Origin: Methanothermococcus thermolithotrophicus DSM 2095
GTDB lineage: Archaea > AGJL01 > Methanococci > Methanococcales > Methanococcaceae
NCBI RefSeq assembly: GCF_946463545.1
Contig: NZ_OX296583.1
Location: 1,277,035 to 1,341,034, forward strand
Length of the DNA: 64,000 nt
Direction of reading: 5' to 3'
The notes below the pieces were generated by a model. It saw only the letters and a list, made by a program, of their open reading frames with translations. It had not been told where the DNA came from and ran no database searches. How positions within the stretch are numbered: position 1 is the stretch's first letter; the number at the start of each line of letters is the position of its first letter. The translations under genes and the position numbers were made by a program. Positions 57,850-62,355 of the stretch are shown here, piece after piece.

Positions 57850-60378
57850 TTATTTGCCCAATTCATTGTTGACACCCTCCTCATTTCTTGATTTTAATTC
57901 TGCAATTCTTGAAGCAATTATTATATCGTTGAAGTTAATTTCTTCTAATTTTTCCACATCACATTTTCTAATTTTATTTTCAATATCGTTTAGATAATTA
58001 TCTATAAACTCCACATTATTATCCAACCCCTCTTCTTTTTTAGAATAGTTTCTATAAAGATAATATTTCATTCTCCATAGATAGGGAATATTGATTCTGA
58101 TTTCAGTTTCAGGAGTATTTTTTCTTAGTGCTTTTCTTAGGTTTATGGAAGTCTTCTGAACTAACTGAACCACTCTTTTTTTACCTAATTTATCTATTGC
58201 ATTTACAAACTCTTCTTCTAATTTTTTCTCATCTTCAATTTTATTCCAATTCAAAGAATGGCCAAAAATACTTACTGAATTTTTCTCCTTTTCCCCTCCA
58301 TCAATTTTTACCTTATTCTCCTTTGCGTTCTCCAGCTCTTCCTCTGCTAAATAGACTCCTTTTCTGTATTCAAATTTTGGACTTACTAAAACTACCCCCG
58401 CACTTAATGTAATATCTTCATTTTCACAAACAAACTTTTTAAAGTCGTCCCTGATTTGCTTTGCCAAATCCCACACTTTATCCCATGCACCAACTATTAA
58501 TGTATCATCACCTCCCGAATAGGTCAAATAAATAGAGTTTTTATATTCATCACTTGATTTGATTAGATAAGGAATATAACCTGTAAAAAACAAAGTCAGC
58601 ATAGAGCTCAGTGTGCTTAATCTCGATATTGTTGCCCCGTTTCCTAAACCTTTTGTGATTATTTTACCTAAGTTATCTACATCCATCTTTAAAATGGCTA
58701 TTTTGTTTGTTCCAGTTCTTTTTTTTGCATCCTCCCCCAATTCAGAGAAATCTTTTATATCTTTATCATCTAATGGAAATGCAATGCTCCAGATCTTATA
58801 TGGAATTTTTAGCTCTCCGTCCTTTGGTAGGTTATACCCCTCATTTTCAAATTTAATTAATTTATAAAATTCCTTTAGTGAAGGTAATTCATTAAAAAAT
58901 TTGGTTTTTTTGAATATTTTTGAATGATTATCTGAGTTATAATTGATCGTTCCTTCTTTTTCGAATTTCTTCAAAAAATTAGTTATCTCTATAAATGAAG
59001 CACAGTTTTCACATATTTTTATATGGTTATCCAATTCATTTGGATTCTTCATCTCGTTTTTACAGATTGGACATCTCTTACTCTCATCCCCATTTCCTTT
59101 TGGATTAAACAACTCCATTCCTTTGTAACTAAACTTTTTCATCTTCTTTTTAGAAGTGGCTTCTGTTGATTCCTTCCATTTATATGGAATTCCAATTTTT
59201 ATGTCTTCATCCATACAATCCATTAAAAAATCAATAGGCCTTAAATCCACCTTTCCAATTGCCACATACAAATCTGCACCGAATTTTTCAAATAATATGT
59301 CGTTTATTTTTTCTTCAAAATCTGCTACTTTTTTACCATCAACGTTGTATGATAGGATGTAAAAGTGCCCCCCTCCGTAAAATAATATATTTGTTATTGG
59401 TAAGTCTAATTCTTGAATAACATATTTAGCACAGAGCTCGGTTAAAAAGTCCAAATAAAAACTCCTACCTTTGAGGGATTTATTTGCCCCTTTCGATGTA
59501 ATATTAAATATAAAATCTTGAACTCCTGAAATATCCCCGTGGATTAATGAAAATAGGTCTTTATTACTGTATTTAATACCATTTTTTAATAATTTTCCAA
59601 TTTTACTTATTTTTTCCGGTTTTCCCCCATATTTATCTTTAATTTCTTTTATTTTAGTTGCTTCTTTATTCAGAGTATTTAAAAGATTTTCAATATCTTC
59701 TTCATTGATTTTTTCATTTTTATATAAACTGCATGCAATAGCACAGGTAGTTTTTGAATGGTCAAATAACGAAACATCTGGCAGATATCCTTTTATCTCT
59801 TTTCCAGACTTCCAATATGTTGCAGATGGAATACACCAGGTATATTTTTGCATAAGTTGACATAACCTTTCAAAATTGTTAACATGACCCAATTCATTTA
59901 AAAAATCTTCTTTTAATTCATTATAGCTTCTATTTGGTGACAAATATATTGCCGTTTTTGATACATTTAAAGGTTTTAAATCGTATTTCTGTGAATCTTC
60001 ATAATTTTTTATTTTATGGTTGCCTAATGAAATACTTTCAAAAATGGACATTAAATATTGGCTGTTTCTATTGTAGCAATCTGTTTCTTTATCCATGGTT
60101 CTTCGTTCTCCACTACTTAACCAATCGGCTAATCTAACTATTGATATAATGCCCTTTTTTATATTGTCATGATGTTTTTCCACAATATCTAAAGCTATTT
60201 TAATCTCATCTTTACCTAAATTTTCTAAAATTGGGATGTTATTCCTATGGTTTTCTAAAAATTCGATTCCAAATTTTCCATGAGTTTTTTTATTTGGATA
60301 AGTATCTGCTCTCTGGATAAATTTTCCAATATCATGCAATAATGCACCAATTTTTAATGCTTCATACTCAGGATTCAT
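57850..60378 (-). CDS. cas10: Cas10/Csm1, signature subunit of the type III-A CRISPR complex
   Basis: 842 aa. N-terminal HD nuclease motif is GALLHDIGKF (H15-D16). Zinc finger CPICKNEMKNPNEL with later CENC. The GGDD palm motif for cyclic-oligoadenylate synthesis is intact in YLTYSGGDDTLIVGAWD. FSLIHGDISGVQDFIFNI is typical of the first palm domain. With both HD and GGDD present, the protein should cut ssDNA and signal to Csm6 (known for homologues). ATG 60378 follows GGGGGG. First gene of the operon; about 170 bp of AT-rich DNA upstream holds the promoter. Confidence 0.94.
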   Translation of the reverse strand: MNPEYEALKIGALLHDIGKFIQRADTYPNKKTHGKFGIEFLENHRNNIPILENLGKDEIKIALDIVEKHHDNIKKGIISIVRLADWLSSGERRTMDKETDCYNRNSQYLMSIFESISLGNHKIKNYEDSQKYDLKPLNVSKTAIYLSPNRSYNELKEDFLNELGHVNNFERLCQLMQKYTWCIPSATYWKSGKEIKGYLPDVSLFDHSKTTCAIACSLYKNEKINEEDIENLLNTLNKEATKIKEIKDKYGGKPEKISKIGKLLKNGIKYSNKDLFSLIHGDISGVQDFIFNITSKGANKSLKGRSFYLDFLTELCAKYVIQELDLPITNILFYGGGHFYILSYNVDGKKVADFEEKINDILFEKFGADLYVAIGKVDLRPIDFLMDCMDEDIKIGIPYKWKESTEATSKKKMKKFSYKGMELFNPKGNGDESKRCPICKNEMKNPNELDNHIKICENCASFIEITNFLKKFEKEGTINYNSDNHSKIFKKTKFFNELPSLKEFYKLIKFENEGYNLPKDGELKIPYKIWSIAFPLDDKDIKDFSELGEDAKKRTGTNKIAILKMDVDNLGKIITKGLGNGATISRLSTLSSMLTLFFTGYIPYLIKSSDEYKNSIYLTYSGGDDTLIVGAWDKVWDLAKQIRDDFKKFVCENEDITLSAGVVLVSPKFEYRKGVYLAEEELENAKENKVKIDGGEKEKNSVSIFGHSLNWNKIEDEKKLEEEFVNAIDKLGKKRVVQLVQKTSINLRKALRKNTPETEIRINIPYLWRMKYYLYRNYSKKEEGLDNNVEFIDNYLNDIENKIRKCDVEKLEEINFNDIIIASRIAELKSRNEEGVNNELGK

Positions 60379-61131: not shown

Positions 61132-61884
61132 TCACATATATTTGTCCATATAGCCTCTTGGAGTAACCATCTTATCGCATATGACTTTTGTATTGGTGTT
61201 CCCGACAATAACTGTTGTTTTCATATCTATGTAAGACATATAATTATCCATATTGTTTAAAATATCCTTTAACGATGTTATTTTGTATTCTTCATCATTC
61301 CTTCCTGCATTTTTAACTATGCCTATTGTATAGTCTACATTTCTTTTATCAGAGTATTCTTTTATTAGTTCTAAAGTTTTCAAAAATGGTTCTTTTCTTG
61401 ATTTGCTAAGTGGGTTGTAAATTGCAATTACAAAATCTCCTTCCAATGCAAACTTGACTCTTTTTAAAATTACATCCAATGGAGTTAGAAGGTCACTTAA
61501 ACTTATGACTGCAAAATCATGATTTAAAGGAGCTCCCAGAATAGAAGAACACACACTGGCAGAAGTTAAACCACTTACAACATTTATTTCAACATTGTAG
61601 TTGTTTTTTTCATTTAATTCATAAGCCAGAGATGCCAGTCCATAAATTGTTGCATCTCCACTTGAAACTAATGCAACATCTTTATCTTTTGCTTCATTTA
61701 ATGCATACTCAACTCTATCTATTTCTTTCTTCATTCCAGTTGTATATATTGGTTTTTCGAATCTTTCTATAAATTCCTTGTAACCCTTATAACAAACTAT
61801 TAAATCTACAGATTTTAATACATCTTCAGCCTGTTTGGTAAAATATTCTTCGTTTCCAGGACCGATGCCAACGACATAAAGCAT
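61132..61884 (-). CDS. cbiH: cobalt-precorrin-3B C17-methyltransferase
   Basis: 250-aa SAM-dependent tetrapyrrole methylase. The N-terminus LYVVGIGPGNEEYFT, the glycine-rich ALVSSGDATIYGLASLAYEL and VISLSDLLTPLDVILKRV match CbiH/CobJ, which contracts the corrin ring in anaerobic B12 synthesis. GTGATATT precedes the ATG. Monocistronic, with the C/D sRNA upstream on the same strand. Confidence 0.9.
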   Translation of the reverse strand: MLYVVGIGPGNEEYFTKQAEDVLKSVDLIVCYKGYKEFIERFEKPIYTTGMKKEIDRVEYALNEAKDKDVALVSSGDATIYGLASLAYELNEKNNYNVEINVVSGLTSASVCSSILGAPLNHDFAVISLSDLLTPLDVILKRVKFALEGDFVIAIYNPLSKSRKEPFLKTLELIKEYSDKRNVDYTIGIVKNAGRNDEEYKITSLKDILNNMDNYMSYIDMKTTVIVGNTNTKVICDKMVTPRGYMDKYM

Positions 61885-61927
61885 AATATCACTTAAAATA
61901 AAATATATAACATAATAATATGGTAGC

Positions 61928-62023
61928 TGTGTCAGACAGTGCTGATATCGTCATCCCAAGGTAATAACTAATTAATAGTTATATACTTACCTTAGTCAGT
62001 GGGGGTAACTCTCATCATCCACA
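61928..62023 (-). ncRNA. box C/D guide sRNA with two 12-nt guides
   Basis: Minus strand. A terminal stem TGTG (62023-62020) / CACA (61931-61928) closes the molecule. Box C GATGATGA (62019-62012), guide GAGTTACCCCCA (12 nt), box D' CTGA (61999-61996). Then CTAAGGTAA...TTACCTTGG, a long internal stem. Then box C' GATGACGA (61955-61948), guide TATCAGCACTGT (12 nt), box D CTGA (61935-61932). Both guides have exactly the 12-nt archaeal spacing. The gene lies between cbiH and pspC. Predicted to direct 2'-O-methylation of rRNA or tRNA; I did not identify the targets. Confidence 0.8.
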
Positions 62024-62085
62024 TTAGAACATATAAAAATAAAATATTTAAAGTATATGGTTCTTGAGTTATTGACGATATGATT

Positions 62086-62337
62086 TTAATTAGTTTTAGC
62101 TGATTTCATCGTTGTGGTTTTTTCATCATCTGAAATTGGTTTTTTAGGTATAATGAAGCATGCTATTATGTATAGGAGGATTCCCGCACCCCAACATAAC
62201 GATATAAACACCCATATTAATCTAACAATTACGGGATCTATATTTAAATACCCACCTATCCCGCCACAAACACCACATAATACCTTATCCTTCTCTGACT
62301 TATAGAGTCTCTTTTTAACACCATTACATGTTTCCAT
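62086..62337 (-). CDS. PspC-domain membrane protein
   Basis: About 83 aa. KRLYKSEKDKVLCGVCGGIG and YLNIDPVIVRLIWVFIS are the PspC signature, followed by a second hydrophobic helix (GAGILLYIIACFIIP). Small membrane stress protein of unknown precise role in archaea. The ATG at 62337 follows GGTGATC; an in-frame ATG-like start at 62346 overlaps that site. An inverted repeat lies just upstream of its start. Confidence 0.85.
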   Translation of the reverse strand: METCNGVKKRLYKSEKDKVLCGVCGGIGGYLNIDPVIVRLIWVFISLCWGAGILLYIIACFIIPKKPISDDEKTTTMKSAKTN

Positions 62338-62355
62338 GAAGATCACCTTGTTCAG

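Follow-up and report, generated by a model that had tools for sequence, protein, structure and literature searches.

A conserved box C/D guide sRNA of Methanothermococcus thermolithotrophicus with a predicted internal kink-turn in place of a K-loop

In 25 archaeal genomes, Grosjean et al. (2008, PMC2584109) predicted a family of box C/D sRNAs for Gm1950 of H. marismortui, a mapped modification at E. coli position 1909; both the target and the guide family considered here are therefore already known. In a review (PMC11542601, Table 1 and text) this residue is given as the equivalent of E. coli Gm2251; the placement at 1909 agrees with our mapping, in which E. coli numbering was taken from comparison with the E. 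coli 23S rRNA. The C'/D' motifs of archaeal sRNAs fold as an internal k-turn or k-loop (Hofler et al. 2021, PMC8413462), so a design with two K-turns is a recognised alternative. An engineered example is also in use: in st-sR26, the apical K-loop of P. furiosus sR26 was exchanged for a K-turn to stabilise the RNP, which assembles and methylates with its oligomeric state unchanged (Graziadei et al. 2020, PMC7089733). The mechanism proposed below is therefore not new. The need of archaeal C/D RNPs for a K-loop, and the effect of this element on mono-/di-RNP assembly, have so far been argued from engineered RNAs.

We analysed a stretch of 64,000 nucleotides from the genome of M. thermolithotrophicus DSM 2095 (hereafter, the window), and identified a candidate sRNA gene on its minus strand (Table 1). 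We propose, with a probability of roughly 0.9, that it specifies a double-guide box C/D sRNA for methylation of 23S rRNA at G1992 and U1939, with an internal kink-turn instead of a K-loop. The reading is supported by the boxes, the complementarity of guides and targets (including a joint change of both), the conservation of the gene across the order, and the covariation of the linker stem.

Table 1. Features of the sRNA locus in window coordinates, arranged in minus-strand order after the first line.
Feature	Positions	Strand	Basis
Gene for box C/D guide sRNA, 96 nt with both halves of the terminal stem	61928..62023	-	boxes read; homologues in Methanococcales
TATA-like box TTTAAATA	62045..62052	-	sequence; promoter role inferred
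5' half of terminal stem, TGTG (partner CACA at 61931-61928)	62020..62023	-	sequence
First bulge nucleotide of K-turn (G)	62019	-	sequence
Box C, ATGATGA	62012..62018	-	exact RUGAUGA consensus
D' guide GAGTTACCCCCA	62000..62011	-	best rRNA match in 5/5 genomes tested
Box D', CTGA	61996..61999	-	sequence
D'-C' linker, 41 nt	61955..61995	-	comparison, shuffles, folding
Box C', ATGACGA (differs from RUGAUGA at one position)	61948..61954	-	sequence
D guide TATCAGCACTGT	61936..61947	-	rRNA match; guide and target change together in G028
Box D, CTGA	61932..61935	-	sequence
3' half of terminal stem, CACA	61928..61931	-	sequence
GCTACC directly 3' of terminal stem	61922..61927	-	sequence comparison with relatives

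The boxes C, D', C' and D occur in the order typical of archaeal box C/D sRNAs and are enclosed by a terminal stem, which is short at 4 bp; the C-D' and C'-D spacings are 12 and 12 nt, as in other sRNAs of this type (about 12 nt). Boxes and stem lie exactly where the first-pass annotation of this DNA had put them, and the whole element, boxes included, is conserved in relatives. An Rfam search over the window returned no match at gathering scores. By archaeal promoter rules, the TATA-like TTTAAATA is spaced such that transcription would start at the 5' end of the sRNA. The single-copy gene lies in AT-rich DNA between two minus-strand genes named by eye, one that looks like cobJ/cbiH (61132-61884) and another that is small and PspC-like (62086-62346). 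Such an intergenic, AT-rich setting might suit a DNA-level inverted repeat, a terminator or a coding fragment that merely mimics an sRNA. We consider this negligible, as no ORF of at least 60 aa overlaps the locus, no terminator-like site was seen in the region, the boxes are conserved and the guides are complementary to rRNA. We conclude that 61928-62023 is a genuine, conserved box C/D sRNA gene of a known family. Elsewhere in the window, an ORF of 842 aa (57850-60378, minus strand) has an HD-like N-terminus and a GGDD motif and by eye resembles Cas10/Csm1 of a type III CRISPR system.

Both guides match the 23S rRNA of their own genome. The D' guide GAGTTACCCCCA pairs over 10 nt with CGGGGGTAACTA, which predicts 2'-O-methylation of G1992, the equivalent of E. 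coli G1909 at the base of helix 69 and thus the target of the Gm1909 (H. marismortui Gm1950) guide family. The D guide TATCAGCACTGT forms 11 pairs, one of them G-U, with CCAGTGCTGGTA, predicting 2'-O-methylation of U1939 (E. coli U1841), 53 nt upstream of G1992; no mapped methylation at U1841 was found in the literature. At both sites the fifth nucleotide from D or D' forms a Watson-Crick pair with the target. The first-pass annotation, which had called for a search for rRNA and tRNA targets, spoke of two exact 12-nt guides; this is right for the spacers, which are 12 nt long, but not for the pairing with 23S, which is shorter and in one case includes a G-U. In all five genomes tested, each guide finds its best rRNA match at the same position of 23S. 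The exact 12-mer TGGGGGTAACTC has no second occurrence in the genome. A compensated change is seen in G028, with GTGCCGG in the rRNA and CGGCACTG in the guide. An imperfect C' box and the short terminal stem could point to a degenerate or orphaned copy that has lost its role in methylation; we regard this as highly improbable, as the gene is single-copy, its guides are conserved throughout the order and each of them has its match in 23S. Compared with the Gm1950/Gm1909 family (PMC2584109), the RNA shares the target nucleotide but has a 41-nt hairpin where linkers are mostly 3-11 nt, and the D guide differs between orders.

The D'-C' linker reads CTAAGGTAA-GTATA-TAACTA-TTAAT-TAGTTA-TTACCTTGG-G, and is paired rather than short and open as in K-loop sRNAs. 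An outer helix of 9 bp touches D' directly and an inner helix of 6 bp (TAACTA/TAGTTA) is capped by the 5-nt loop TTAAT, the two being set apart by a one-sided 5-nt bulge, GTATA, that divides the stem into about 9 + 6 bp. The last linker nucleotide, G at 61955, is unpaired and leaves exactly one nucleotide between helix and C', so that this G and the A-U of C' would form the 3-nt bulge of a canonical kink-turn. All parts of such a motif can be read from the sequence: a stem I of 9 bp, the bulge G-A-U and the tandem G-A pairs that follow. A box-abutting stem of this length arose in 0.05-0.25% of mono- and dinucleotide shuffles of the linker, and the linker folds with a z-score of -3.4. The comparison with relatives described below supports a linker that acts as a box-abutting helix and gives the internal motif a full kink-turn. 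In the plain minimum free energy fold of the whole RNA the linker hairpin is recovered, but the two guides are paired to one another, since folding software of this kind has no model for K-turns; we set this fold aside as uninformative. In the first-pass annotation the linker of about 40 nt was drawn as a long, rigid stem that abuts the boxes and makes the internal motif a full K-turn. The outer 9 bp pair as it claimed and the K-turn register is borne out by the relatives described below, but "rigid" is too strong: because the GTATA bulge separates the outer and inner helices, the linker is better described as a paired hairpin than as one rigid rod.

DNA searches found the sRNA in nearly every Methanococcales genome searched, and the same sucD gene adjoins the orthologues in some genera. 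One exception is G004, of the same family as the window genome, which gave no clear homologue (best E 0.086) though its relatives have one. The D'-guide core AGTTACCCCC recurs in more than 100 euryarchaeal loci, mostly of Methanomicrobiales, with others in Methanosarcinales and Haloquadratum. Most family members have linkers of 3-11 nt, including those of Methanocaldococcus and Methanotorris-type genomes. Hairpin linkers of 17-41 nt occur in the window genome, in genomes assigned to Methanococcus and in three further Methanococcaceae (G009, G015 and G019). Methanomicrobium carries a hairpin linker of 25-26 nt with 10 bp, which we consider to have arisen independently of those in Methanococcaceae, and Methanocorpusculum-type loci have 3-bp stems with GAAA or GCAA loops.

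All family linkers of at least 17 nt differ in sequence, yet pair over at least 5 bp beside D' and leave one nucleotide before C'; the position of C' had been chosen from its box score, independently of any pairing in the linker. Among ten distinct linkers, 50 of 50 standard pairs are kept, with 23 cells changed on both sides, which answers the proposal of the first-pass annotation to look for compensatory changes in relatives. Shuffled controls were paired at 57% on average and none of 500 equalled the real alignment, a comparison limited by the relatedness of the rows. Sliding the partner by 1-3 columns, a control that retains this relatedness, lowered pairing to 23-58%. The inner part of the hairpin is not conserved, and linker sequence and length vary freely; by this alignment, the conserved feature is the helix beside the boxes in K-turn register, not the hairpin tip. 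One could suppose that this is an ordinary K-loop sRNA with a tolerated neutral insertion, the hairpin being incidental and the internal motif still a K-loop, given that most relatives have 3-11-nt linkers, that the linker varies so freely and that inverted repeats arise easily in AT-rich DNA. We judge this unlikely: a neutral insertion would not keep its pairing in one register, with 23 two-sided changes, through such divergence, nor leave one nucleotide before C' each time.

We thus favour two kink-turns, and predict that L7Ae would bind one at each end of the RNA, in place of one K-turn and one K-loop, the internal site being stabilised by the linker helix. Nop5 and fibrillarin would then assemble as usual, and fibrillarin, with Nop5 and L7Ae, would 2'-O-methylate G1992 through the D' guide and be directed by the D guide to U1939. 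We infer transcription, assembly, methylation at both sites and the stabilising role of the helix. By its predicted fold, the RNA is a natural counterpart of st-sR26. Both have K-turns at each end and a helix abutting D' and C'; st-sR26 is man-made with a short stem and a GAAA loop, whereas the present RNA is natural with 9 bp, a bulge and 6 bp, and the Methanocorpusculum-type loci are natural 3-bp GNRA versions. It also resembles the archaeal sRNAs in which a helix flanking C'/D' gives an internal k-turn (PMC8413462), although the accessible part of that paper describes no lineage with long hairpins, no covariation and no series from K-loop to K-turn.

The hairpin might alternatively be kept for another role, such as protection from nucleases, processing or circularisation, a preference for mono- over di-RNPs, or the binding of a further protein, with the K-turn as a by-product. 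Its length, from 17 to 41 nt in this family and up to 57 nt in another, and the lack of conservation of its inner part would fit such a role. RNAs without an internal loop have also been described to form mixed mono- and di-sRNPs, and a loop-containing natural sRNA di-sRNPs only (review PMC3608112). Against it, the conserved portion is the box-adjacent helix in K-turn register and not the tip, and the K-turn of st-sR26 had no effect on oligomeric state (PMC7089733). We therefore see another primary role as a lesser, though not trivial, possibility and retain the internal kink-turn as the preferred reading.

In all hairpin-linker Methanococcales checked, loop 9 of L7Ae reads EVPTS (L290 in the window genome), as it does in G017, which has a 14-nt linker. 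K-loop Methanococcales have EVAAS, EVSAS or EVATS. By alignment, the proline of EVPTS seems to correspond to P96 of Snu13, in the loop to which K-loop binding is attributed. Loop 9 and linker type are concordant in 23 of 24 Methanococcales rows, which represent only about three changes on the tree and are not significant. We tentatively speculate that in one branch of the Methanococcales kink-turn hairpins replaced the K-loops of several C/D sRNAs alongside a change of L7Ae from EVAAS to EVPTS, by co-evolution, and that GCTACC may add a third contact to 23S beside the target, although we hold this combined scenario to be rather doubtful. If true, this co-evolution of guide RNA and protein, with its eukaryote-like proline, would parallel the archaeal-to-eukaryotic shift. 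Among the rows compared, the 3' tail GCTACC accompanies the hairpin type and, of the K-loop rows, only the related G017; it is complementary to the only GGTAGC of 23S (2012-2017, 20 nt downstream of G1992), which at six nucleotides is weak evidence. We rejected a place for it in a longer terminal stem, its partner being inconsistent across species. Loop 9 as sole cause of the hairpins was likewise rejected, given the few changes on the tree, a Methanomicrobium hairpin whose loop 9 is identical to that of some K-loop relatives, and sRNAs with 3-5-nt linkers that persist in genomes having the proline. In G004, L7Ae loop 9 reads EVSTA.

The accessible literature yielded no natural lineage of long hairpins in which linkers grade from K-loop to K-turn. 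What is new here is this natural series, together with a suggestive, statistically unproven match to the proline in L7Ae loop 9. The methanogens provide a natural matched series, in which one guide with the same targets has linkers of 4 to 41 nt, and it includes the genetically tractable M. maripaludis, so that both the internal stem and L7Ae loop 9 can be tested for their roles in vivo.

Pattern searches of seven genomes, with a homologue search, yielded seven recurring sRNA families. Our pattern search of G005, which we take to be M. maripaludis C5, gave seven family-type candidates, with the ortholog of the present sRNA among them. RNA-seq detected seven C/D sRNAs in M. maripaludis C5 (PMC4644070). 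As the counts are equal, the ortholog is very probably expressed in that strain, provided that G005 is indeed its genome. Methanococcus genomes have three further families with hairpin linkers, namely one whose D guide would, by deduction, direct methylation of C34 in a CAU-anticodon tRNA, the GTCATCCC family (L337, L345, L339) and the GTGCCGACTTCA family with 3-4 bp (L308, L303); the corresponding linkers in G006 and G028 measure 3-10 nt. In L303 the stem is 3 bp long and capped by a TTCG loop. The first-pass annotation had implied a rare structure; this is overstated, as the guide family is published, internal k-turns are recognised and more than one sRNA family of the clade repeatedly carries hairpin linkers, and we rate the rarity as moderate.

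A second sRNA of the window genome (L209/L211; G000:C1:1135185-1135289, plus strand) has a structured linker of 46 nt, and its D guide ACCGTATGAGCT would direct methylation to C34 of a CAU-anticodon tRNA. It is presumably of the sR-tMet type, which guides Cm34 of elongator tRNA-Met. This type occurs in the order and, like the present sRNA, has hairpin linkers in Methanococcus; it differs in its guides and target, and its hairpin, which abuts the boxes in some Methanococcus genomes, is not closed beside them in the window genome.
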